From a virus: a stretch of DNA of 25,651 nucleotides. This document shows positions 1-22,609 of the stretch, one piece after another. The stretch spans positions 1-25,651 of the IMG/VR virus record IMGVR_UViG_3300008259_000428. One strand, 5' to 3'. A program made the position numbers and the translations under genes. The notes beneath the pieces are model-generated. The model saw nothing but the letters and a program-made list of their open reading frames with translations. It searched no databases and was not told the origin of the DNA. Within the stretch, counting starts at the first letter, position 1, and the number at the start of each line of letters is the position of its first letter.

Positions 1-92
1 TCTAGTGCAAACTCATCTAGACGAGGATCATTATATTGCAGATTCTTCCATTCAGCCTTGTTCTTAACAAGTTCTTTCCAAGTAGGTTCCAT
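1..92 (-). CDS. hypothetical protein, partial (runs off the window)
   Basis: An open frame starts with ATG at 92 and stays open to base 1, giving about 30 residues that begin MEPTWKELVKNKAEWKN. The ATG overlaps the TAA stop of the preceding gene (TAATG), and a GGGAG Shine-Dalgarno stretch sits about 6 bases upstream inside that gene's last codons, so the start is well supported. The fragment is charged and Trp/Asn-rich and I do not recognise a family. Its place just after the internal virion proteins suggests another ejection or tail component, but that is inference from context only. Confidence 0.7.
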   Translation of the reverse strand, partial: MEPTWKELVKNKAEWKNLQYNDPRLDEFAL

Positions 93-2266
93 TATTGCTC
101 CCACCATTCTTTAGCGCCAGCCGTAGGAGCAGATGCTGCAGGTTTAGCAGCCGATGCTGCTGGAGCAGCAGGAGTTGCAGCAGGGGCTGCGGGACGGGCT
201 TCCATGCTGAAGAATCCAGCGTAAGGTTGGTTATTATTAATAATACCAGCAAAATCCTGACCAACTGCTTTTGGCTGCTCTTTTGTCAGCATAGCTCGAC
301 CATACACCATGTTGCTCAGCATGGGTTTTAGTTGCTTCATAAACTCTTCAGAAGCTTGCGTATAAGCAGTATTAATAACAGGTGCAGCAGCAGCTTGCAT
401 CTCTGCCATAGTCATTGCTCTACGCTGTGATGGAATAGCAGGACGGGCTGGCTGCACTACCACAATCTCCCCCGCATCGTTAACACCCAGTTCTAGTTTT
501 ACTTTGTATTTATTTTCAATGGTGGTCTTCATGTCCTGTACATTTCGTACAGATTGCTGAAGGCTGTTGCTGACGTTAGCTTTAATGACAGCTTGATCTG
601 GATCAGCAAGCTTACTAATCTTTTCGCCAATGGTTTTATATTGACGAGCAAGTAGTTGGCTATTAGCACCATACTGCGTAGACGTACTTAGAGCAGCACT
701 CACCACATTAACCTCTACAGGACTTAGTTCTGCTTTCTTTAGCGTTTCTACAGCAGTAGCCATCTGTGCCTGATGAGCAGCACGAGTGGTGTTAGAGGAA
801 GCAATAGGATCTACAGGAACTGCAGCGGGGCTTTGTTGTGACTGTAGCATAACTCTTTGAACGTTAGCTAGATCACCTGCCGCTTTAACATCGTTGCGAA
901 CACCGCCAATAGCTGTAGTAAGTTCATTTTCTTGACCAACCATAAACTCATAGAATGAACGATTTGTACGCTTAAGATTCTGACGATCCGCGCCACCCGC
1001 CCAATATGCCATAACCATAGGGTTATTCTGCATGGCAGATTGTTGTTTAATTGCAAGGTCTACTAGCTGTTGTTTTTCTTGTAAAGTTTTATCACGATAT
1101 GTGCGTAGAATAGTAGCCATAGCAGTTAGACCAATGCCCTTATCATCAGCATATTTGCTTAACGCTGTTTCAGCCATTCGATCTATGTCACCATACAAAT
1201 CATTTCGCTTTGCAGTTGTAAGGTTAGGATTATTTGCAATGTACGAATCAACCGCAGCTTTAGCCTGACGACGAGCTTGGTCAATATTAGTACGCATTTG
1301 AGCACTGTGTAGTTTTGCTAATGTTTCAAATTGTACAGGGTTTACGGCTCTTGGGTCACCTGTTGCCATAAGTTCTAGTGTTTTGGCAAACGTTTCTTCT
1401 TTATCTTGAACAGACTGAGTGAGAACAGATGTTCCTAAACTACCACTAAAAATAGCAGCAAAAGCAGGGCGTTGCTGATCTGCTTGCATGTCGCTCTGAC
1501 CTTGCTGACCATCAATATACGCTTTAACACGTTTAGTCTCAGTAGACGTAGCCATGATCTGCTGAGCACCTGACATACGCCTATCGTACTCGGCACGATT
1601 AGTTCTATACAAATTTAAAAGCTGCTCACGAGTACCGACAACACCTAAATCAGCAGCTTTATCCATATCCTGCAGAGCAACATCTTCAGCAGATTTAGGC
1701 TGTTTACCTTCTTTGGGTGGAGTAAAACGCTCACGTACATAACTCATCTGTGCCCAACGATCTGCACCGGGCATGCCTGTAACTGCAGCAACTCGTTCAC
1801 GAATTTGATTAGCAAGTCCGGGAAACTTTGCAATTGCTGTTTTAGTAATTGAATCAATTCTAGAAATGTAGCGTTCATTAGACATGCCACCTTCTACAGC
1901 AGCTTTAAGACGATTTAATTCGTTATCAAAAGCCCCTAGTTGTTTACCCACTGCTTCTTGTTGTTCAAGAGGTGCAGCCTCATTAAATTGCCCAAATACA
2001 GTACCTCGTGCTGCCGCTACACCGGGAATCTGTTTAGCAGCTTCTTCTGCTAACTTACCTGTACGTAAAAACTCAGCACCTAGACCAGCAGCTTCTTCTT
2101 CAATATTAGCCATCTCACCTGCTACATAACCCTTGTACAAGTCCCCAGCAAAACCTGTGAGAGTGTTAATGGATTCTGCTTTGGCTCTAGCGGCTTGCCC
2201 TAGCAGTGCAGGGTTAGCCATTGCTGGCTCTACGTTCCTAGTAATGTCTGCACGATAAGTTGCCAT
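92..2266 (-). CDS. internal virion protein, gp15-like (724 aa)
   Basis: The 724-residue product is mostly helical and Ala/Gln/Lys-rich with no signal peptide and no clear membrane segment. Length is close to T7 gp15 (about 747 residues), the ejected internal core protein, and it sits directly beside the gp16-like giant. Residues about 687-720 form an Ala/Pro-rich low-complexity tail (repeats of APAA/SAAKPAAS) ending in EWWEQ, like a flexible linker with an anchoring tip. The start ATG at 2266 overlaps the TAA of the upstream gene (TAATG) with an AGGAGA ribosome site about 9 bases before it. The gp15 assignment rests on size, composition and neighbours, not on a diagnostic motif; a different structural or ejection role is possible. 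Its place downstream of the gp16-like gene reverses the T7 order. Confidence 0.6.
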   Translation of the reverse strand: MATYRADITRNVEPAMANPALLGQAARAKAESINTLTGFAGDLYKGYVAGEMANIEEEAAGLGAEFLRTGKLAEEAAKQIPGVAAARGTVFGQFNEAAPLEQQEAVGKQLGAFDNELNRLKAAVEGGMSNERYISRIDSITKTAIAKFPGLANQIRERVAAVTGMPGADRWAQMSYVRERFTPPKEGKQPKSAEDVALQDMDKAADLGVVGTREQLLNLYRTNRAEYDRRMSGAQQIMATSTETKRVKAYIDGQQGQSDMQADQQRPAFAAIFSGSLGTSVLTQSVQDKEETFAKTLELMATGDPRAVNPVQFETLAKLHSAQMRTNIDQARRQAKAAVDSYIANNPNLTTAKRNDLYGDIDRMAETALSKYADDKGIGLTAMATILRTYRDKTLQEKQQLVDLAIKQQSAMQNNPMVMAYWAGGADRQNLKRTNRSFYEFMVGQENELTTAIGGVRNDVKAAGDLANVQRVMLQSQQSPAAVPVDPIASSNTTRAAHQAQMATAVETLKKAELSPVEVNVVSAALSTSTQYGANSQLLARQYKTIGEKISKLADPDQAVIKANVSNSLQQSVRNVQDMKTTIENKYKVKLELGVNDAGEIVVVQPARPAIPSQRRAMTMAEMQAAAAPVINTAYTQASEEFMKQLKPMLSNMVYGRAMLTKEQPKAVGQDFAGIINNNQPYAGFFSMEARPAAPAATPAAPAASAAKPAASAPTAGAKEWWEQ

Positions 2267-5200
2267 TATTTGTTTTCTCCTGTGTTCGTCACGATGTCTT
2301 TAATCTTCCATTCTTTCACAGCTTGATCAGTTAGCATTTTTTCATACTGAGTAAATGCTTCTGTCTTGTATGCTGCTTTCATTAGTTGAGTGTAGTCTGC
2401 ACCGCTATAACTGTTTAGAATAGCTTGAACCACTGCAGCATGTGTTCTATGCCCTTCATCGTCATTGTTACGTAGTGCTGTTAGTGCTAACATGGCATGT
2501 TTACCTAAAGCTTTAGATGCTGCTTTGATGTCATCATCGTGCGCTTTCTTGCTACTGTACACAATGTTGTAGTCTTCTTGTGCTGCAGGAGGAATACCGA
2601 AACCAATCATCCATGCTTCAGTGTCGGTCACTCGGTACATAGCTGAACCACTACTACTTTGGACTTTATTAAAGTTCTCCATTGCAATGCGAGCTTTCTG
2701 AGCGTTATTAATAAACGAGAAGCTGCCCTTACCAATTTCAGTCAGTGCAGTCTGTAAAGTACTCATGGTCATGGGTGCCTTAGCAACGATTGAGAATGCC
2801 TCACCAAAGCCTCCTAGTATACGTAGGGCTGCAAAACCAGATGGGCCAGCAGCTACTTCCATAAATGTTTTCTCAGGGTCTAGCAAACCCTTTACAATGT
2901 CTTCGTAATAACGGAAGGTATTGAAACGGCTACCTAGTGCTAGCTTTGCTTCACCATCTGTTAGTGCTGCAATTGCACCTGCTACCACACCCTGTTGCAC
3001 AGTGATGCGCTGTGTCTCCGACATATCTTCTGGCAGCATGTCAGTTAGAATGTCTCGGAAAGGCCACAGGAAGGCACCAGCAGTACCCATCACCATCGTG
3101 TGGGTTAGCAATAGTTGTGCTGCTTCTTTCTGTGTAAATGCTCGTGGGTTACCCATCAAACTCTGAATGATGTTCATCATTAACTTAACTTGATATTGCA
3201 CGAACTGTGTAGGAATAGACTTCCAACCTTGCTGCCATGAAGCAGTGTTGGCACGAGTCATATTCTGTGTCAGACTATCTTGACGCTCCATAATCTTAGC
3301 TAGAGCATCGTCTGTCCACCAAGCAGTGCCGGGGTTAGCAGCAATGTACTCACGACGAGCAATGTCAAAGCTAACTAGTCGGCTGTAACCTTCACCAGCA
3401 TTGAAGAAAGCTGCAGAGGTGTCACCAGCACGACGAGACACTTTGTTAAAGATGCCGTACTTGCCAACTTCAGCACCGTACAAGCTCGTAGTATTGATGC
3501 CGTCCATTAGACCAGTACGGCGAATAGCGCGTACTACTTCCACAAACTCATCTTCCTTCATGCCTAAGCCAAGGTTGGTGAGGTTGTTTACTTTAGCCAC
3601 ATTACGCCAAATATCTTCTTGATCACTGAACAGTGCAAGAGAATATAGTGACGATGATTTAGCACTCTTAATACCGTGCAGAGGGCTAATTGCAATGGCG
3701 TTGAATGCGTTCATACCCTGCATAAAAAACTGTACAGGATTGAATGCAAAGAAGCTGTGGAAGGCAATGGTACGTGCCCACGTTGGGTAGTCTTTAGTAG
3801 CACGTAGAGTAGCACCTAGCTTGGCAATTGGTTTACTACCTGTCTTAGATTCAAGACCTTCGCTAATCATACGCATAAAACCAAGATAGTCTTTTTCTTC
3901 TTTAGTAGGAATATTCATCTGTGCAATGATGTAGTCTTGCACTTTTTCTGCAACAGCGCGTCTTTTGTCTGTACCAACATACATGCCTTTGTTGTTTAGC
4001 ATGTAACGGAAAGCTGCATCAGGAGTCATTGTACGAACGTTGTCAGGCAGATTATCCACGAACGTATTAAACCAACGAATAACGTGGCTTTCGCGCCACT
4101 CAGTAATTGACGCTACATAAGCAGTGTTGCCAATCTCTGCTGCTACACTATCTAATGGGCTTAGAGTGTTGACCGTATCTTTACCAAATACAGACAGCAC
4201 TTTGTCACCCCGTTTAGATGAGTAGTTGCTAGACATACCAATAGTTTCATTAATATAGTCATCGTCTGTACGAGTATACAATACCTCGACACTAAAAGAT
4301 TGACCAAAGCGATTGCTATCTAGTGCAGCAATGATTTCCTCTGGCCTCCAACCAAACGGTTCCATGAGGCGACTTGCTTCAGCAATAGTTAGGTTGCCAG
4401 CAGCATGTAGTGTTTTGGCTTCGTTTAATGCTTTAACATATGCATTTGCTTCGGCTACACTAGAAGCAGTACGATGTGTTTGTACAACTTGTTCCAACTT
4501 GCCGTCTACTTCGTAAACAGACTTAATCTTAACAAAGTATTCGTCGCTGTAGATACGACGATATTCACCAGCACGATAAGGAATTACGTTGGTAATTTTG
4601 TTGGTTTGATAGCTGCCATCAGGGAAACCAATGATGCGGCGCATCTTACCTTCAATTTCTACAGGCTCAACAACTTCGTAGAATGTGTAACCTTGTGCCC
4701 GGTTTTCTTCTAGGAACGTACTAGTAACACGAGTAGCAGACTGTGAGTCTGCGAGATACACTGTGTCACCTTCAACAACAGTACGAGGCTTAACAAAAAG
4801 CTTACTATCTTCAGTTAATCTAATGTCGCTTGTAAGTTCTACATAACCACGGCGAGTCATGCTACGTGCAGCGGCATCATTCCTAATCTGCCACATAACG
4901 TCACGTAGTGCACGTACTTTGTAATAGCCTTCACGGGCATTAGCAGAAAGACCCATACCAGCCAATTCGTTTTGCTGGAATACTTTACCTTCTTTGTCAC
5001 CTAGCACTAGCGCATCGTTTAGCGCAACCATCTCTGATTTGTTTAGCTTCTCTAGGGAAGGACGTACAAAGTTGGTAAGTAGCTTTTGATAGCGGCTTTG
5101 CTGTGCAATACCTACTACACGCTGCCCATACAGTTCTTTAGACGTAGATAGTGCCCAATCGCCCATAGCAAACCGGGCTGCGCTATTAATATCGTCGTCG

Positions 5201-7590
5201 GTGTATTTGCCAATTAGTGAGTAATCTAGTGTGCGATTAATAGGCTGCTCAACAACGTAGCCAGTCTTAAGACCTTTCTCAGCGTCTTCAATGGCATTAA
5301 GTTCTGCAACTACTTCTTCCAGTTGTTTCTCTAGATTTTCTAAAGAAGGTTTAATGTCTTTGGATTCACTAGCAATGTTTGGTGCAGACGCACGAGTAGC
5401 CACTACCTCATCACGATACATCTTGATGTGGTCATTCAGCATCTTAGTGATGTTCTTGTCAGCCGTAGCAACATCAATCTCACGGCCTAGTAGCTGTGAA
5501 AGACGAGTGTTTAGTTCGGCTGCAATCATCTTGAAGCCTTCAACTAGTTTAGCAAAGGCTTGACCTAGAATGGTTGTAGGTACTTCGTCAGTGAATGCCC
5601 ACTTAGAAAACTGTTCTGCAAAGAATTCAGCATAGCTATTAGCCCACCCATGTAGGTTTGCTTCAGCAGCATTAAAACCTACTTTATCTCCTTGAAACCA
5701 TTTTTGTACAAAGTCGTCAAGAAGTTGTTTACCCATTGTTAAATTGCGGTACTCAATTAGCATCTCAGGTGGATAAGTATCCATAACTTTTTGATGTTTG
5801 CCTTGACCGCTATATTTTAAACCTTTACCTTTTAACCACTCATTAAAAGCATTCTGCATTGTTGCAAAATACTTCTGATTAAACTCTGCATCAAAAGCAT
5901 GCCCATATTCGTGGGCAAATGTTTCCATATAATAACGCAAATTTGCATTAGGGCCTACTTCAGTCCGCATAATAATAAGAGACTGATTATTACCAAAGTT
6001 TGAGTGTGTTGCAGCGGCTCTAGGAAAGTTTTTCTCAAACGCCCGTGCGTATTCAACAATGAATGGGACTTTGCTTTTCTTCATATCACTAAGCTGCATT
6101 ACAATAATTTTGCGGTCTTGCATACCTAGCGCAGTACCTAGTTTACCAACAAACTCGGCAATGAATCCTTGCTGCGTACCCGTAGACATAGATAGATTGC
6201 CTATTTTAACTAAAGCAGGATCTGACTGTAGAATTTTAAACGATTGGTCAAACTGTACTTGTAAAGCTTCAGAAGGTTCATCTCGTGGTCTAACGTAATT
6301 GTTAGGCACAAGAATATTACCTGCATCGTCTAACGCAACATCTTCGTTTTCTTTGATGTAGTTGCGTACACGTTGGGCGTGTCCTTTAATTTCGTTATCA
6401 GACCAGTTGGTTACTTTTTGTAGCCATTCTTTAATGACTAGATCGCTCTTGCTAGGCTTAGTCTTGCTGCCAACTTGATAAGCTGCTTTGTCAATGTCTG
6501 ACTCAAATACTAGCCCTGCAGTTTTCCAACGGGGCTTGCTTAGCTCTAGTTCTTTAGGCGTTTTAACATCTAGTACGTTAACGTCGTCAATCTTAGTTCC
6601 CGGTTTTACTTTGGCTGCGTTAATAGCCTCTAGAATCTGAGCTTCTAGTGCAGCCTTGCGTAGTTGTAGATCCCTTTTTACATTCTCTTCAACTAAGAAT
6701 GCAGTGTTAGTTGTGTCTGGCACAACCTTCATATTCATCTTACCAGTGGGATCTGCGGCTTTAATGTATGCTTCTGCAGCTTCTTTGGTAAGGAATGCAG
6801 ATGCGTTTTCAGGTTTGTAATATACTTTACCAGTAATTACTAAACCATCTTCACTTAGCTTAAAAGGATCTAGCGAATGTACATTAGGGTTGCTTGCTTT
6901 AGAATAGGTACGCTCAAGCAGTGCTAGTTCTGCAGCAGCTTCATCAGCACGAACACCTTTGGCTGCAATTACGTCTTGCAGTTCATTAATCAGACGCTCT
7001 ACGGGTTTGCGAACTAGTTTCTGTAGGTCATCTGCAGCAGTTGTAATTACATCAGGTAAAACTTTAGCAGCATTCATGCTGACTAGCTTGCCCAGATCAA
7101 TTGCAGTGGAGATGCCAGTGAGTTCACCAGCAACAACACCCACAGCTTGTAGACGCATTCTGTTGGAAACTTCAGAAGTAATCTTAGCCGCTTCTGCAGA
7201 TACTAACGCATTTTTGCCACCACCTGCCGCAATGGTGCGTTCTACGTTATTAATAGCGTTTGCATTTTTTAGAAGTTTAGTTGCTTTAAAAACAGCACCA
7301 GCACCTGCTACCGCAGTTCCAACTACTCCTAATCGGTCTAACCAGTCTGACCAACCATCCCACGTTTGCTCAGCACCTGTAGCCACTTCTTGTACTAATA
7401 ATGCAGCTTGCCAATCTGTAATAAGCCAACTGTCTTTCAAATCTTTGTAAAGACCTTCTAGCCATTTACCTTTTTCTTCGTCAGGTTTAGATTGAAATAC
7501 TGCTTGTAGATATGATTTAGTTAAAGAACGTCCAGAAGTACGGCTAATAGCGTCTGCAGGTACGCCATACTTAATTGCCACACGATCCAT
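2266..7590 (-). CDS. giant internal virion/ejection protein (1774 aa) with HExxH metallopeptidase domain
   Basis: This is the largest gene in the window, in the position of T7 gene 16. The family role is to leave the virion with the DNA and help form the conduit across the cell envelope. A zincin motif HEYGHAFD occurs at residues 560-567 (H560, E561, H564). A likely third zinc ligand lies in SYAEFFAEQF (E655 or E659). This matches gluzincin-type peptidases of the lethal-factor-like or polyvalent-protein kind. Hydrophobic stretches lie near residues 88-105, about 1265-1290 (SFFAFNPVQFFMQGMNAF) and about 1485-1515, before an amphipathic C-terminal region. No complete lytic transglycosylase domain is seen; the N-terminus (RVAIKYGVPADAI) only faintly recalls one. 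The ATG at 7590 has AAGGTG seven bases upstream and an in-frame TAA just before it, which fixes the start region. It overlaps the preceding gene by 70 bases. Role confidence is good from position and size; proteolytic activity is inferred from motif only. Confidence 0.8.
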   Translation of the reverse strand: MDRVAIKYGVPADAISRTSGRSLTKSYLQAVFQSKPDEEKGKWLEGLYKDLKDSWLITDWQAALLVQEVATGAEQTWDGWSDWLDRLGVVGTAVAGAGAVFKATKLLKNANAINNVERTIAAGGGKNALVSAEAAKITSEVSNRMRLQAVGVVAGELTGISTAIDLGKLVSMNAAKVLPDVITTAADDLQKLVRKPVERLINELQDVIAAKGVRADEAAAELALLERTYSKASNPNVHSLDPFKLSEDGLVITGKVYYKPENASAFLTKEAAEAYIKAADPTGKMNMKVVPDTTNTAFLVEENVKRDLQLRKAALEAQILEAINAAKVKPGTKIDDVNVLDVKTPKELELSKPRWKTAGLVFESDIDKAAYQVGSKTKPSKSDLVIKEWLQKVTNWSDNEIKGHAQRVRNYIKENEDVALDDAGNILVPNNYVRPRDEPSEALQVQFDQSFKILQSDPALVKIGNLSMSTGTQQGFIAEFVGKLGTALGMQDRKIIVMQLSDMKKSKVPFIVEYARAFEKNFPRAAATHSNFGNNQSLIIMRTEVGPNANLRYYMETFAHEYGHAFDAEFNQKYFATMQNAFNEWLKGKGLKYSGQGKHQKVMDTYPPEMLIEYRNLTMGKQLLDDFVQKWFQGDKVGFNAAEANLHGWANSYAEFFAEQFSKWAFTDEVPTTILGQAFAKLVEGFKMIAAELNTRLSQLLGREIDVATADKNITKMLNDHIKMYRDEVVATRASAPNIASESKDIKPSLENLEKQLEEVVAELNAIEDAEKGLKTGYVVEQPINRTLDYSLIGKYTDDDINSAARFAMGDWALSTSKELYGQRVVGIAQQSRYQKLLTNFVRPSLEKLNKSEMVALNDALVLGDKEGKVFQQNELAGMGLSANAREGYYKVRALRDVMWQIRNDAAARSMTRRGYVELTSDIRLTEDSKLFVKPRTVVEGDTVYLADSQSATRVTSTFLEENRAQGYTFYEVVEPVEIEGKMRRIIGFPDGSYQTNKITNVIPYRAGEYRRIYSDEYFVKIKSVYEVDGKLEQVVQTHRTASSVAEANAYVKALNEAKTLHAAGNLTIAEASRLMEPFGWRPEEIIAALDSNRFGQSFSVEVLYTRTDDDYINETIGMSSNYSSKRGDKVLSVFGKDTVNTLSPLDSVAAEIGNTAYVASITEWRESHVIRWFNTFVDNLPDNVRTMTPDAAFRYMLNNKGMYVGTDKRRAVAEKVQDYIIAQMNIPTKEEKDYLGFMRMISEGLESKTGSKPIAKLGATLRATKDYPTWARTIAFHSFFAFNPVQFFMQGMNAFNAIAISPLHGIKSAKSSSLYSLALFSDQEDIWRNVAKVNNLTNLGLGMKEDEFVEVVRAIRRTGLMDGINTTSLYGAEVGKYGIFNKVSRRAGDTSAAFFNAGEGYSRLVSFDIARREYIAANPGTAWWTDDALAKIMERQDSLTQNMTRANTASWQQGWKSIPTQFVQYQVKLMMNIIQSLMGNPRAFTQKEAAQLLLTHTMVMGTAGAFLWPFRDILTDMLPEDMSETQRITVQQGVVAGAIAALTDGEAKLALGSRFNTFRYYEDIVKGLLDPEKTFMEVAAGPSGFAALRILGGFGEAFSIVAKAPMTMSTLQTALTEIGKGSFSFINNAQKARIAMENFNKVQSSSGSAMYRVTDTEAWMIGFGIPPAAQEDYNIVYSSKKAHDDDIKAASKALGKHAMLALTALRNNDDEGHRTHAAVVQAILNSYSGADYTQLMKAAYKTEAFTQYEKMLTDQAVKEWKIKDIVTNTGENK

Positions 7591-8108
7591 TGCTGCACCT
7601 TGTTCTGCTTAATGGCTTTTTCTAAACTTGCCGAGGCTGCTAAACGGCTGGCAACTCGATTATTAGATTCACTAATTTGTTGAGGCGTGTTGTTTAACAA
7701 TACTGCAGGGTTTTTAACTACTGTGTTTTCTACAGCTAGATCAGTAAGTTCTTTTAATTTAGCGCGAGTGGCATCTGCATTTTTTACAGCAGCTTCACCA
7801 TACATTTTATTACGTTCTGCAATTTTATTTAGTAACGCTTCCATGCTGTAAGGATCGTTACGTGCGGCTGCATTCTGCGCTATTTCATAATCTACAGCGT
7901 TGTTTTTAGGAACAGTAGTTCTCCACGCACCATCCACAAAACTATCAAAGTCAACAACATCGTTTGACAGTTCTTGACCTGTAGCAGCAACAACAATTCC
8001 TTTTGCAACAGAATAGTTACCCCGAGTATCGTCTACTGAGGGTTTAGTATCTTCTTCTGTGTAAAGAGGTTGGTTGTCTTCTGGTGCGTTGTCTTGGTAT
8101 AGTTCCAT
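7521..8108 (-). CDS. putative structural/internal virion protein (195 aa)
   Basis: The product begins with an acidic, probably disordered segment (MELYQDNAPEDNQPLYTEED) and continues as helical Ala/Asn/Lys-rich sequence without membrane segments until about residue 170. The last 23 residues are read out of phase over the start of the giant gene (70-base overlap) and look like by-product sequence (LQTLLAVLLDVL). The ATG at 8108 follows the gp14-like gene by 17 bases, with only a weak GAGAA ribosome site. It lies between gp14- and gp16-like genes, where T7 has gene 15, but it is far too short to be a complete gp15. It may be an adaptor for the ejection core, or the N-terminal part of an ancestral larger internal protein. 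I do not recognise the family. Confidence 0.7.
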   Translation of the reverse strand: MELYQDNAPEDNQPLYTEEDTKPSVDDTRGNYSVAKGIVVAATGQELSNDVVDFDSFVDGAWRTTVPKNNAVDYEIAQNAAARNDPYSMEALLNKIAERNKMYGEAAVKNADATRAKLKELTDLAVENTVVKNPAVLLNNTPQQISESNNRVASRLAASASLEKAIKQNKVQQWIVWQLSMAYLQTLLAVLLDVL

Positions 8109-8125
8109 TATGTATTCTCGTATTA

Positions 8126-8593
8126 TTAGTAACCTACAGGCTGTTGTGGTGTACGTAGATTTTTAGATAGTTGAGCATAACCCCCAGCACCTTCAAAAAT
8201 AGTACCACTTAGTTTACCAATTGTGCCGTACACTGCAGTATTACTCATAGCCTGTGCACCTTCAGCAGCGGCTGCTCCAATTGCAGTATTTTCACGAGCA
8301 ATCTGCTGCATGTAATTTAGGTTACCTGCTAGTTGTGTACCGACACTAGATATACCACCAGCAAGAGCACTGCTACCTACACCACCTGTTTGTGCAGCTA
8401 CGTTACTCATAGCAGCTTGTGCTAAACGTGCTTCACGAATTTGCTGTCTCACTGCACGAATATTTTGTACCTCTGCTTTACGTCCTTCAGCTTCGTACTG
8501 ACGTTGAGCAGCTTTACCTGCTTTACGTTGTTCTTGAGCACTTGCTACTGTGGCTGTAGCACCAATAATTGCCGCTACTTCTAGAATTCCCAT
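8126..8593 (-). CDS. internal virion protein, gp14-like (155 aa)
   Basis: The protein has a hydrophobic N-terminal segment (about residues 4-19, LEVAAIIGATATVASA), then a charged coiled-coil stretch (about 20-60), then Ala/Gly/Ser-rich sequence with small hydrophobic patches. This layout and the position right after tail tubular protein B and the gp13-like gene match T7 gp14 (about 196 residues). In T7, gp14 is ejected first and lodges in the outer membrane. A CGGAG ribosome site lies about 8 bases before the ATG at 8593, and only one base separates that ATG from the stop of the gene before. The hydrophobic segment is not a cleavable signal peptide by appearance. The assignment is by architecture and synteny. 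Confidence 0.72.
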   Translation of the reverse strand: MGILEVAAIIGATATVASAQEQRKAGKAAQRQYEAEGRKAEVQNIRAVRQQIREARLAQAAMSNVAAQTGGVGSSALAGGISSVGTQLAGNLNYMQQIARENTAIGAAAAEGAQAMSNTAVYGTIGKLSGTIFEGAGGYAQLSKNLRTPQQPVGY

Positions 8594-8594
8594 A

Positions 8595-8885
8595 TTAATT
8601 CTCCGTTGAGCAAACCATTAACAGAGCGTTGTTAATCTGTTTAACAGGTTTAAAACCAAAAATAGTTTCAAATTTAATTAGCTTTTTGTCGTTTGCAGGA
8701 ATTAGTACGTATACTTCTTTATGTCCTGCTTCACGTAACTCTTCTTTAGCAACGTGCCATACGTCTAGGCATTTCATATACACACGCTTGTTCCATTGTT
8801 TAGTGGTTGCGTGTGCGTAAACTCGACCCATATGATGTTGGAACTTTAATGTTCCGTCTTCGTCTTCCCAAAATACATCAAACAT
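8595..8885 (-). CDS. T7 gp13-like / GNAT-like small virion-associated protein (96 aa)
   Basis: I chose the ATG at 8885 (MFDVFWEDEDG) because AGGTG stands about 7 bases before it; an in-frame upstream codon at 8894 would add three residues and has less support. The gene overlaps the end of tail tubular protein B by 8 bases. The C-terminal half (EVYVLIPANDKKLIKFETIFGF, about residues 57-78) looks like the end of a GNAT acetyltransferase fold, where a small residue-FGF segment closes the domain. No full acetyl-CoA pyrophosphate loop (Q/RxxGxG/A) is visible. In T7 the gene at this place, 13, encodes a small protein needed for virion assembly. I therefore call it gp13-like by position and size and do not claim enzyme activity. 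Confidence 0.6.
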   Translation of the reverse strand: MFDVFWEDEDGTLKFQHHMGRVYAHATTKQWNKRVYMKCLDVWHVAKEELREAGHKEVYVLIPANDKKLIKFETIFGFKPVKQINNALLMVCSTEN

Positions 8886-11082
8886 TCTGTGCACCTACAA
8901 ACGTGCCTGTCCAACCTACAATCTTCATGTCTTTACCAGATTCAGAAGTGTACTTAAACTGCACAGCTTTACCCCTGCCACGCAACTTATTCTTACTAAT
9001 AACAAGAGGATAGCCGTCGTCAAAGTCTTGAAATGGCGCTGCTAAGAAAGGTCTAGGTTGGCGATAGACTTGTACTTCAGCAGCCCACTTACCGGGATTA
9101 GTATTGTCTGTAAAGTCCCACCGACTCTGCATCAAACACCCACTCTCATTAAGCGGTATGCCGTTAGCATCAAAACTAGTTTCAGTGCGTTTCATAAACA
9201 CAGTGAGGTACATTCCTGTCTTACTACGTGCAGGTCCGTTTCCACCCATGTTGTAGCCTGTAATAAAGTAGGCTTGTTTTTCTACTCCAGCAGTGTTGTA
9301 ACGATACCAGTCTTTAAATTTAGTTGCTGCTGGACGCGCATTTAAAAAGTCTGAAAAAGTAACTGAATAGTTATTAGCACTTACAGGATGTAACGTTAGT
9401 ATTTTAAACGTTTTGACAGTGCCGTTAAGCACTGGAATATTTGCCACAACATCGTCACTGCTTACATTCACATCATCAGAGTTTACATACACATCATACA
9501 CAAGAGATGTTTCATTAGTTTCTTTAGTTGTCTCAATTGATACAGGAATAACACCTAAACTAGTATCAATTTCAAACCAATACCACGCATTCAAACGTAA
9601 GTCTAATACTAAGATAGTATCTTTGTTAAACCGACCAGTGCTAGTATCAACACCAGCCACAGAAGAATATAGCCAATAAATAACTTTATCAGTGGCATTA
9701 TAGTTTCCTTCTGCGTAGAGTTTACTTAGTACAGGAATGTTTTTATAAAATGTTTTAATGTTCTGGTCACTAATGTTTCGGCTAGAAAACTCTGCACCAG
9801 TGTTGCCGGGAGCTACAGCATAAATACCACTGTTAGACCAGTAGATGAGCGTATCCTCAACTACTACAACACTCTTGGTGGACACACACCCTACAGAAGA
9901 TACACGCTCTACAGAATAACTAGCAGCCGTAAAGCCCCTATCAATACCACTAATAAACCACACGCCGTTGGAGGCAATGACCATGATGCCTCGACCAAGT
10001 GGTTCGAGGGCTACAATCTCACCGCTATCTGGAATCTCAATAGTACCACCATCGTCATCCTCTAGATCGCTAACAACTTCTGAGGTAGGATCGTTAGATT
10101 GATAGCAATAACCAACCTTATTGATATCGTCTAGTACTTGACTAAAGTAAACAGTTCCTAGCTGTTCGGTAGTAGGTACACCAGCATACCAAACACGACC
10201 AGCAAAGAATGCACAAACTCGGGGGCGATAAGCTGTAGAAGTAACAATACCACTCCGATTTTGATTAAAGGCATTAATAATAAAACGGCCTTTAGGAGCA
10301 GGTGATGTGCCAAAATCTTGCTTGTTAAGAACTGAAGCAGAGAAGTCATCATTAGTATCTTTACCAAAAATCCAACTTTTGCTGTTAGCAGGTAGTTTTC
10401 CTGTGGCAGACTCATATGTGTTAATCTGAGTATCTGTCCAACCTTGGTTGTATAGATTGTATTTGGCTTGTGTCAAGAAACCTGCGCTAGTCCACTCGGC
10501 TGCAGTTTTCTCAGCGTCAATGGCATAAGGACTTTGAAAACCTACAAAGTCACGAATGTTAATAGTAATTGCCGTTACAGTGATTGTGTCTGTGCTGCTA
10601 TTGTAAGTAATTAGTAAGGGTTCAGTACTTTTACTAGTAACAATAAGTTTTCCGTATGTAGACGCAAAACTGCAGATTGACGTACCTGCAGTGTCTGGAT
10701 TACCGGGAGCAATGTAGGAGGCCAGATTAACAGTGAAAGATTTTTTAGTGTTGCTTACTGTTCCAGAAGATGCACGATAAAAATGAAGAGTAGTGCCTGT
10801 TTGTGCTACAAAGAAATCTAAATTAGAGTTGCCCCCTACACTAGTCCACATACCCGTAGTAAAAGCCCACGTGTTTTTCTGCTCAGCAGTAATGCCTAAA
10901 GCAGCAAGAGTGTAGTTAGCCTCATAATCAAGTGCTGACCTACGCTCAATGCTGCCTTCAATTGTTGGCACTACGTTTACACCTTCTTTCCAAGAATTTT
11001 CAGGTGTAACGAAAAAGCCGCCTTCAGTGTTAAGGCCACCTACAAAAGTAAACGCATCTTTAACTGCGGCTTGTACTGCCAT
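8878..11082 (-). CDS. tail tubular protein B (T7 gp12-like, nozzle)
   Basis: The 734-residue product is beta-rich, with many Thr, Asn, Ser and Tyr residues and repeated short strands, and no signal peptide or membrane span. It fits T7 gp12 (about 794 residues), the hexameric nozzle that forms the distal tail tube. The N-terminus (KDAFTFVGGLNTEGGFFVTPENSWKE) is of the form typical of the family: a short lead, then a GGLN.E motif and a statement of binding residues for the tube. The AAGGA ribosome site lies 7 bases before the ATG at 11082. Two small genes separate it from tail tubular protein A upstream, and gp13/gp14-like genes follow, as in T7. The call is strong on motif, length and synteny together. 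Confidence 0.85.
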   Translation of the reverse strand: MAVQAAVKDAFTFVGGLNTEGGFFVTPENSWKEGVNVVPTIEGSIERRSALDYEANYTLAALGITAEQKNTWAFTTGMWTSVGGNSNLDFFVAQTGTTLHFYRASSGTVSNTKKSFTVNLASYIAPGNPDTAGTSICSFASTYGKLIVTSKSTEPLLITYNSSTDTITVTAITINIRDFVGFQSPYAIDAEKTAAEWTSAGFLTQAKYNLYNQGWTDTQINTYESATGKLPANSKSWIFGKDTNDDFSASVLNKQDFGTSPAPKGRFIINAFNQNRSGIVTSTAYRPRVCAFFAGRVWYAGVPTTEQLGTVYFSQVLDDINKVGYCYQSNDPTSEVVSDLEDDDGGTIEIPDSGEIVALEPLGRGIMVIASNGVWFISGIDRGFTAASYSVERVSSVGCVSTKSVVVVEDTLIYWSNSGIYAVAPGNTGAEFSSRNISDQNIKTFYKNIPVLSKLYAEGNYNATDKVIYWLYSSVAGVDTSTGRFNKDTILVLDLRLNAWYWFEIDTSLGVIPVSIETTKETNETSLVYDVYVNSDDVNVSSDDVVANIPVLNGTVKTFKILTLHPVSANNYSVTFSDFLNARPAATKFKDWYRYNTAGVEKQAYFITGYNMGGNGPARSKTGMYLTVFMKRTETSFDANGIPLNESGCLMQSRWDFTDNTNPGKWAAEVQVYRQPRPFLAAPFQDFDDGYPLVISKNKLRGRGKAVQFKYTSESGKDMKIVGWTGTFVGAQNV

Positions 11083-19253: not shown

Positions 19254-19438
19254 GATTTGTAACCTCCACCTTTAGCTTTGTACTCACGAGCAAGCATTTG
19301 TGCTTTACGTGCAGACCATTCACCGGGATCACCACCCTTACTGCCTGCTTTAATTTTTTCAAACAATGCCTTACGCATGGTGGGTTTAGTGTAGACACCA
19401 GCGGCGTTTACTTTAGACTTAGCTGGTTTCTTGGTCAT
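19250..19438 (-). CDS. small basic conserved protein with GGxPGxWSARKAQ motif (62 aa)
   Basis: The product ends with KALFEKIKAGSKGGDPGEW, then SARKAQMLAREYKAKGGGYKS, a compact motif that I recall from small phage and algal-virus proteins (possibly DUF5872, not checked). The N-terminus is a short basic segment (MTKKPAKSKVNAAG). The ATG at 19438 overlaps the TGA of the HNH-like gene (ATGA). No membrane span or signal peptide. The conserved Trp and SARKAQ helix suggest a folded domain that binds a partner or DNA. No function is established to my knowledge. Confidence 0.85.
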   Translation of the reverse strand: MTKKPAKSKVNAAGVYTKPTMRKALFEKIKAGSKGGDPGEWSARKAQMLAREYKAKGGGYKS

Positions 19439-19704
19439 TTCATTTTCCCAGTTTTAGTGCGTGAAAAACTTTTGTTAGCAGTTGACGAACGTACACGAAG
19501 ATTTTTCTTAGCGTTGCTTCCACCTTTGCTAAGTGGTGTTTTATGGTCAACATCATTACCATCTCCTTTAGACACTCGGCCTTCACGCTCTAACATACGA
19601 CGAGCACCATTGCGTTTAGCACGATCTTTTTTTACGTCGTTTTTGCCGTCATACTTTTCATATTGTTTTTTATAATCACGTTTTCCGTTAGTCATGTACG
19701 GCAT
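19435..19704 (-). CDS. reduced HNH-like endonuclease (89 aa)
   Basis: The motif DVDHKTPLSKGGSNAKKNLR (residues 51-70, D53 and H54) followed by SSTANKSF (N77) fits the beta-beta-alpha-metal fold of HNH nucleases. The Cys pairs of the zinc-ribbon subtype are absent, so it is a minimal version. The first 50 residues are a Lys/Arg-rich arm. HNH proteins next to terminase genes are known to assist DNA packaging or end cutting in several phages, and a homing-type role is less likely for so short a protein without DNA-recognition repeats. The ATG at 19704 overlaps the TAA of terS (TAATG) and the TGA overlaps the next ATG. Catalysis is inferred from motif only. Confidence 0.8.
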   Translation of the reverse strand: MPYMTNGKRDYKKQYEKYDGKNDVKKDRAKRNGARRMLEREGRVSKGDGNDVDHKTPLSKGGSNAKKNLRVRSSTANKSFSRTKTGKMK

Positions 19705-20581: not shown

Positions 20582-21040
20582 TTAAATTCCTTTATGATAA
20601 ACAGTTTTGCCGTTTTCTTTAACGGCACGAAGAACTTGGCACTTTAAATCTTTTTCATCATACGAAACATGTACCCAACCACTGTCAGGTACATCGTCTG
20701 TGTAAAACTCTAAAATAAGTTGAGTAAACTTAAAGTTATCTTGGATGTATTCAGCTAATACTTTATTGTCAATGCCTACAATCTCAATGTCTGCTGCCAT
20801 ACCTAAACAATGATCGCTGTAAGGGCTGCCTCCCACAGCGGTGTTTACTGCGGGACTCCTATATCCACTGTTAATGGTTACTGGCCCAAACTTATCACGC
20901 AATGGTTGTAGCACATTAGCAACAAGAATATGTAAATTATTTTGTACTTTTTCAGAAGGAGTGTTATCAATGTTGCGACGAATAGCAACTTCTGATTTGC
21001 ACAATTCTGCTAGTGTAAAGTTTCTAGATAGTTGTGTCAT
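20582..21040 (-). CDS. endolysin, M15-type zinc peptidase (152 aa)
   Basis: The enzyme cuts peptide bonds of peptidoglycan to lyse the host. The family pattern is present: [16 protein letters not shown] (residues 74-87) gives H77 and D84 as zinc ligands, and SGWVHVSY gives H124 as the third. [21 protein letters not shown] at the N-terminus and [16 protein letters not shown] (about 56-71) are also typical of the M15_3 type, which includes many phage lysins. There is no signal peptide, so it depends on the holin just upstream. The ATG at 21040 overlaps the holin TGA (ATGA). Length is right for a single-domain M15 lysin without a separate cell-wall-binding part. Confidence 0.92.
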
Positions 21041-22255: not shown

Positions 22256-22609
22256 TTAAGAACAAATGGGGCCAGCTAAAGACAAAGGATTTACTCCAGC
22301 AGGAATCATAGACGGATCAAGAATTTCGTTATTTTCTTTATCACGTAAAGCGTGTATGCAGTAAGCCACAGTATTGTCAACCATAGCTACAAGCTCATGT
22401 ATTTTGTCCTTGTGGATGTATATCATGTGCGGGGCGGTAAACTCAGTCACTTGACCTTCTACAGTAACCTTAAGTTTTCCCTTGGCTAGTAGAGTCAAGT
22501 GGTCAAACTGGTGTGCGTGACCTATTTCTATGTCTCCCGCTTTGCGAAAGTGCATCATGCGGGAGTACAAATTGGCGACACAGCCAATGTGAACGAGGGG
22601 AGAGGTCAT
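22256..22609 (-). CDS. small cupin-fold protein (117 aa)
   Basis: The product carries a cupin motif 1, GHAHQFDHLTLLAKGKLKV (residues 30-48, with H31, H33 and H37 as likely metal ligands), and a shortened motif 2, APHMIYIHKDKIHELVA (59-75, H66 and H71). The strand pattern between them (VEGQVTEFTAP) is that of a single-domain beta barrel. No enzyme type can be read from it. Cupins of this size occur in many aquatic myo- and podophages, where they are unexplained and may be structural or may bind a sugar or metabolite. The ATG at 22609 overlaps the TGA of the gene before it, so it is tied to the tail genes rather than to lysis. Confidence 0.8.
   Translation of the reverse strand: MTSPLVHIGCVANLYSRMMHFRKAGDIEIGHAHQFDHLTLLAKGKLKVTVEGQVTEFTAPHMIYIHKDKIHELVAMVDNTVAYCIHALRDKENNEILDPSMIPAGVNPLSLAGPICS

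Follow-up and report, generated by a model that had tools for sequence, protein, structure and literature searches.

A predicted gluzincin-type zinc metallopeptidase domain in the giant internal virion protein of uncultured phages related to Zobellviridae

The question raised by this locus is whether a giant phage protein that appears to be ejected into the host together with the DNA carries a protease of its own, and what such a protease would cut. The stretch of DNA analysed here (the window) is a virus record of 25.65 kb (25,651 nucleotides) whose structural genes lie on the minus strand and follow the order of a podovirus: terminase, portal, scaffold position, capsid and tail proteins, and then the ejection proteins. 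The first-pass annotation had read two motifs in the ORF running from 7590 to 2266, HEYGHAFD and, further downstream, YAEFFAEQF with E655 and E659, and both are found where it placed them. HExxH occurs once in the 1774 residues (the chance expectation from composition is 0.012), and about 95 residues separate it from the predicted third ligand of the domain. The features discussed below are as follows.

8126 to 8593, minus strand: neighbour of 155 aa, placed where internal virion protein B would lie
7521 to 8108, minus strand: 195-aa ORF, the N-terminal piece of the same giant protein in relatives, where the two form one frame of about 1970 aa
7608 to 7609, minus strand: junction lacking 61 bp that are present in contig L001 and relatives; the frame is broken and the giant gene split into two ORFs
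2266 to 7590, minus strand: ORF of 1774 aa, the larger part of the giant internal virion (ejection) protein, of IVP-D type
5491 to 6228, minus strand: predicted zincin domain, residues about 455-700
6004 to 6006, minus strand: H529, carried by the sheet's middle strand; the same in all 24 family members but lost in the distant member L065
5890 to 5913, minus strand: HEYGHAFD, residues 560-567, with predicted zinc-binding H560 and H564 and predicted catalytic E561
5608 to 5634, minus strand: YAEFFAEQF, residues 653-661, with E655 as the predicted third ligand and E659 as a predicted second-shell residue
2566 to 5232, minus strand: C-terminal core, residues about 787-1675, common to internal virion proteins of Zobellviridae phages
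92 to 2266, minus strand: 724-aa neighbour, in the place of the 600-800-aa protein found downstream of IVP-D in Zobellviridae

On account of the 61-bp gap, the earlier annotation misread how large the protein is and whether the gene is intact: the coordinates given for the ORF are correct, with the gene on the minus strand, but the 1774 residues are not a whole protein. Contig L001 is near-identical to the window (99.7-100%) and holds an extra 61 bp at 7608/7609 that join the 195-aa and 1774-aa ORFs in one frame, and in relatives where the gene is complete the open frame spans about 1890-2020 aa, in most of them 1970-1990. Because of these two observations the window ORF is, as judged by comparison of contigs, a fragment, arising either from an assembly gap or from a real deletion. 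The intact protein would be about 1967 aa long, with HEYGH near residue 753. The gap leaves the zincin untouched.

The label of ejection protein is backed by homology as well as by gene order. Residues 832-1584 match the internal virion protein family PHROG 12003 (E 8e-48), residues from about 787 to 1675 align in hhalign with Zobellviridae proteins over 787 columns at a probability of 100, and the gene order around the giant protein is that of ICP2, VP41s3 and ICBM2. The protein would be present in the virion and delivered with the DNA in the manner of T7 gp14-16. The zincin lies upstream of the shared core, in the N-terminal part, and HExxH is absent from the homologues of ICP2, VP41s3, GX1, 1.015.O, ICBM2 and T4S1, and from the syntenic giant proteins of MEP402 and ctOsX528. 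The nearest named terminase is that of MEP402 (57%), and the phages carrying the domain are an uncultured short-tailed family related to Zobellviridae.

Several other genes of the window may be recorded here. In Zobellviridae a small acetyltransferase (GNAT) gene sits between the tail appendage and internal virion protein B, a place taken in the window by a 99-aa ORF (8595-8894, minus strand) with no significant family match. An 89-aa ORF upstream of the terminase (19435-19704, minus strand), containing DVDHKTPLSKGGSNAKKNLRV, is HNH endonuclease-like. A protein with a Peptidase M15_3 domain (20582-21040, minus strand; E 1.6e-18) is probably the endolysin, and among the genes of the tail-fibre region there is a 117-aa cupin-like protein (22256-22609, minus strand) whose Cupin_2 score, E 9e-4, is below the curated cut-off.

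Conservation of the presumed active site was proposed earlier as a check on the domain, and none of the five residues (H560, E561, H564, E655 and E659) varies among the 24 family members, one of which is the window. The family comes from viral contigs and its domain identity to the window is about 41-81%. Some of the scans used motif patterns; this bias is avoided by a scan whose patterns come from the C-terminal half only, and each of the 26 contigs it recovers that reach far enough carries both HExxH and the EFFxE block, in the open frame of the matched part and upstream of it. Codons are mixed at each of the five positions (CAT and CAC for histidine, GAA and GAG for glutamate), and conservation therefore acts on the protein. 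The third position after HExxH (+3) is D or E in all family members but L066; in this distant relative (L093 is the same contig as L066) the giant protein carries, besides its zincin HEYAH, another HExxH, HEFAH, some 440 residues ahead of the C-core match. In close pairs dN/dS is mostly about 0.015-0.04 in the active-site helices, about 0.10-0.15 over the whole domain and 0.03-0.10 in the C core, with a few pairs departing from these ranges, and these ratios indicate purifying selection on the domain, strong on the catalytic site. Divergence of the zincin domain runs at about twice the rate of the core, although the active site itself does not change (mean pairwise identity 53% for the domain and 76% for the C core).

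The predicted structure arranges these residues in a zincin-like order. AlphaFold with the family alignment gives a pLDDT of 79 for residues 430-725 and of 82 for a trimmed core, and the model consists, in order, of the three strands of a mixed sheet (65-70, 98-104 and 107-112 in model numbering), a long helix with HEYGH (122-159), inserted helices and a helix with E655 and E659 (224-237). The structure prediction that had been suggested at the outset places HEYGH on one long helix and the two glutamates on a later one, and the fold search puts mostly zinc peptidases in the lead. Foldseek against the PDB returns no match at E <= 0.001. In VIA-align, whose rows come only from families that Foldseek ranked well, the leaders are ColH (Z 7.2; 3.9 Å over 109 aa) and ColG (Z 7.1; 4.5 Å over 121 aa), followed by rows for SPRTN (Z 6.6; 4.1 Å over 103 aa), Wss1 (6.3) and ACE2 (about 5-6); the trimmed model aligns with jannalysin (Z 6.4; 3.5 Å over 83 of 104 aa) and ColH (5.3). 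The best rows are mostly zinc metallopeptidases, at Z values that are modest, below 8, a range where common arrangements occur. In BFVD, matches at a probability of 0.93-1.00 fall on the family and on phage proteins whose annotations name polyvalent-protein domains. Because the Z values are modest, the fold is assigned from the structural matches and the motif layout taken together.

Searches at the level of sequence families place the domain in no named group. Neither single proteins nor alignments recover a family for it in Pfam, PHROGs, NCBIfam or the PDB; SprT-like, reprolysin and M50B score at E 0.005-0.02, short of the cut-offs. The gluzincin-type layout put forward in the first-pass annotation holds as regards the zincin HExxH...E arrangement, but its narrower suggestion of lethal-factor-like or MPTase-PolyVal membership finds no support in Pfam, whose ATLF/M34 models give no match to the domain and whose MPTase-PolyVal HMM (PF18818) gives none above its cut-off. 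The latter model also misses the N4 zincin, which the describing authors count in, and does not cover the group; lethal factor rows in VIA-align reach Z 3.8-4.0 only. Likewise, tblastn yields no credible zincin homologue in named phages, a scan of genome contigs yields no cellular or prophage relative, and the domain profile comes back empty from six whole Zobellviridae records, a set with no positive control in it. Seven IMG/VR relatives are picked up by the domain profile.

The region is probably, from its sequence and a predicted model, a gluzincin-type zinc metallopeptidase domain in the N-terminal half of the giant internal virion protein. In such a domain H560, H564 and probably E655 would hold the zinc and E561 would activate water for proteolysis. 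E655 is the probable ligand and E659 probably a second-shell residue because the N4 profile alignment sets ALNEFMAW on YAEFFAE, with an invariant glutamate in ALNEFMAW of N4 and in TEVF of P1 DdrB. The enzyme would act as an accessory protease, ejected with the DNA and working in the newly infected cell, a reading that, taken whole, falls a little short of an even chance. A host protein is the likelier substrate, at not quite even chances, with the phage's own ejection proteins a less probable but substantial alternative. Related phages have the same core without a recognisable protease, and assembly and ejection therefore seem not to need one; a host substrate is favoured on two indirect grounds, this one and the fact that the domain outpaces the core with its active site fixed, although the faster divergence can also mean looser constraint instead. 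The most specific form of the proposal, a Zobellviridae-like lineage whose ejection-protein zincin cleaves a particular host protein at entry, such as one of defence or of the envelope, is more speculative and on balance doubtful.

The strongest rival is self-processing: within the procapsid, or once ejected, the zincin would cleave the giant polypeptide that carries it or the ejection proteins that accompany it, and so free separate working pieces. The domain separates the C core from an N-terminal part, and conservation is low at residues 326-350, 426-475 and 726-750, yet no cleavage site can be identified in the protein and homologous ejection proteins exist without the motif. Precedent is divided as well: self-processing or host targeting was proposed for phage zincins in 2017, and processing brings P1 DdrB to about 76 kDa ahead of packaging, whereas the zincin-bearing N4 virion RNA polymerase is packaged unprocessed (PMC5512222). 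This explanation is credible as a minority view. A role in the envelope, in which periplasmic cutting of envelope proteins or peptidoglycan peptides would serve the ejection channel and replace the T7 gp16 transglycosylase, agrees with the lack of a recognised lytic domain in the giant protein and the neighbours tested; the Zobellviridae homologue, however, likewise has no recognised lytic domain, and no zincin motif either, and peptidoglycan cleavage is without precedent among the matches, which makes this role improbable. Equally improbable is a structural zinc site or another kind of HExxH metalloenzyme, in spite of the modest Z values and the occurrence of HExxH outside zincins, an ambiguity raised in the N4 structure paper (PMC12633501), as against a catalytic E561 as invariant as the histidines and best structural matches that are mostly zinc peptidases.

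A search of the open-access literature found no protease in a podovirus internal virion protein. A zincin in an ejection protein of the IVP-D type was likewise not found described; the arrangement has been predicted earlier for N4 and P1 (PMC5512222). The family described here adds an independent case, in a smaller ejection protein, with a catalytic site under strong selection and with relatives that have the same core without HExxH. Comparison of phages with and without HExxH makes the role of a virion-borne protease at entry testable.

Among known systems, T7 gp16 is the counterpart of the giant protein by position and carries a lytic transglycosylase, whereas the giant protein here has no Pfam match to such a domain, which a divergent one could escape. 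The IVP-D proteins of Zobellviridae (ICP2 gp6, VP41s3 and ICBM2) share the C-terminal core and the gene order, but they are 1414-1674 aa long and without HExxH in the six compared, and the zincin lies outside the core that is shared. The minigluzincin jannalysin and the peptidase domain of clostridial collagenases resemble the domain in predicted fold, with no detectable sequence relation, and differ from it in how far the third ligand lies from HExxH, about 95 residues in the present domain.

Iyer and colleagues (PMC5512222) ranked zincins first in frequency among the domains of polyvalent proteins from phages and plasmids, the N4 virion RNA polymerase and P1 DdrB among them, and a later structure shows the N4 domain (PMC12633501); the passages covered on these two zincins contain no report of protease activity. 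The N4 zincin (MPTase, C1, residues 2124-2375) likewise has HExxH and a later glutamate in an [N/A]EF motif within a giant ejected virion protein, and the helix after the glutamate also aligns; unlike the present domain, it is fused to an RNA polymerase and has T at +3 instead of D/E, and the weak profile match to it (P 9e-4, probability 23%) leaves HExxH outside the aligned region. P1 DdrB has HELGHHLE for HEYGHAFD/E, acidic at +3 in both, and a later TEVF for AEFF, but differs in protein architecture, again with a weak profile match (P 0.0015, probability 17%); the family alignment behind both comparisons is shallow (Neff about 2.6-2.8). One widespread clade of polyvalent-protein MPTases has a conserved histidine on strand 2 and an aspartate three positions after HExxH (PMC5512222), and a histidine on the middle strand (H529) and an acidic +3 residue are present here too, with profile links that are weak. 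The nearest described analogues of the domain are the zincins of phage polyvalent proteins.
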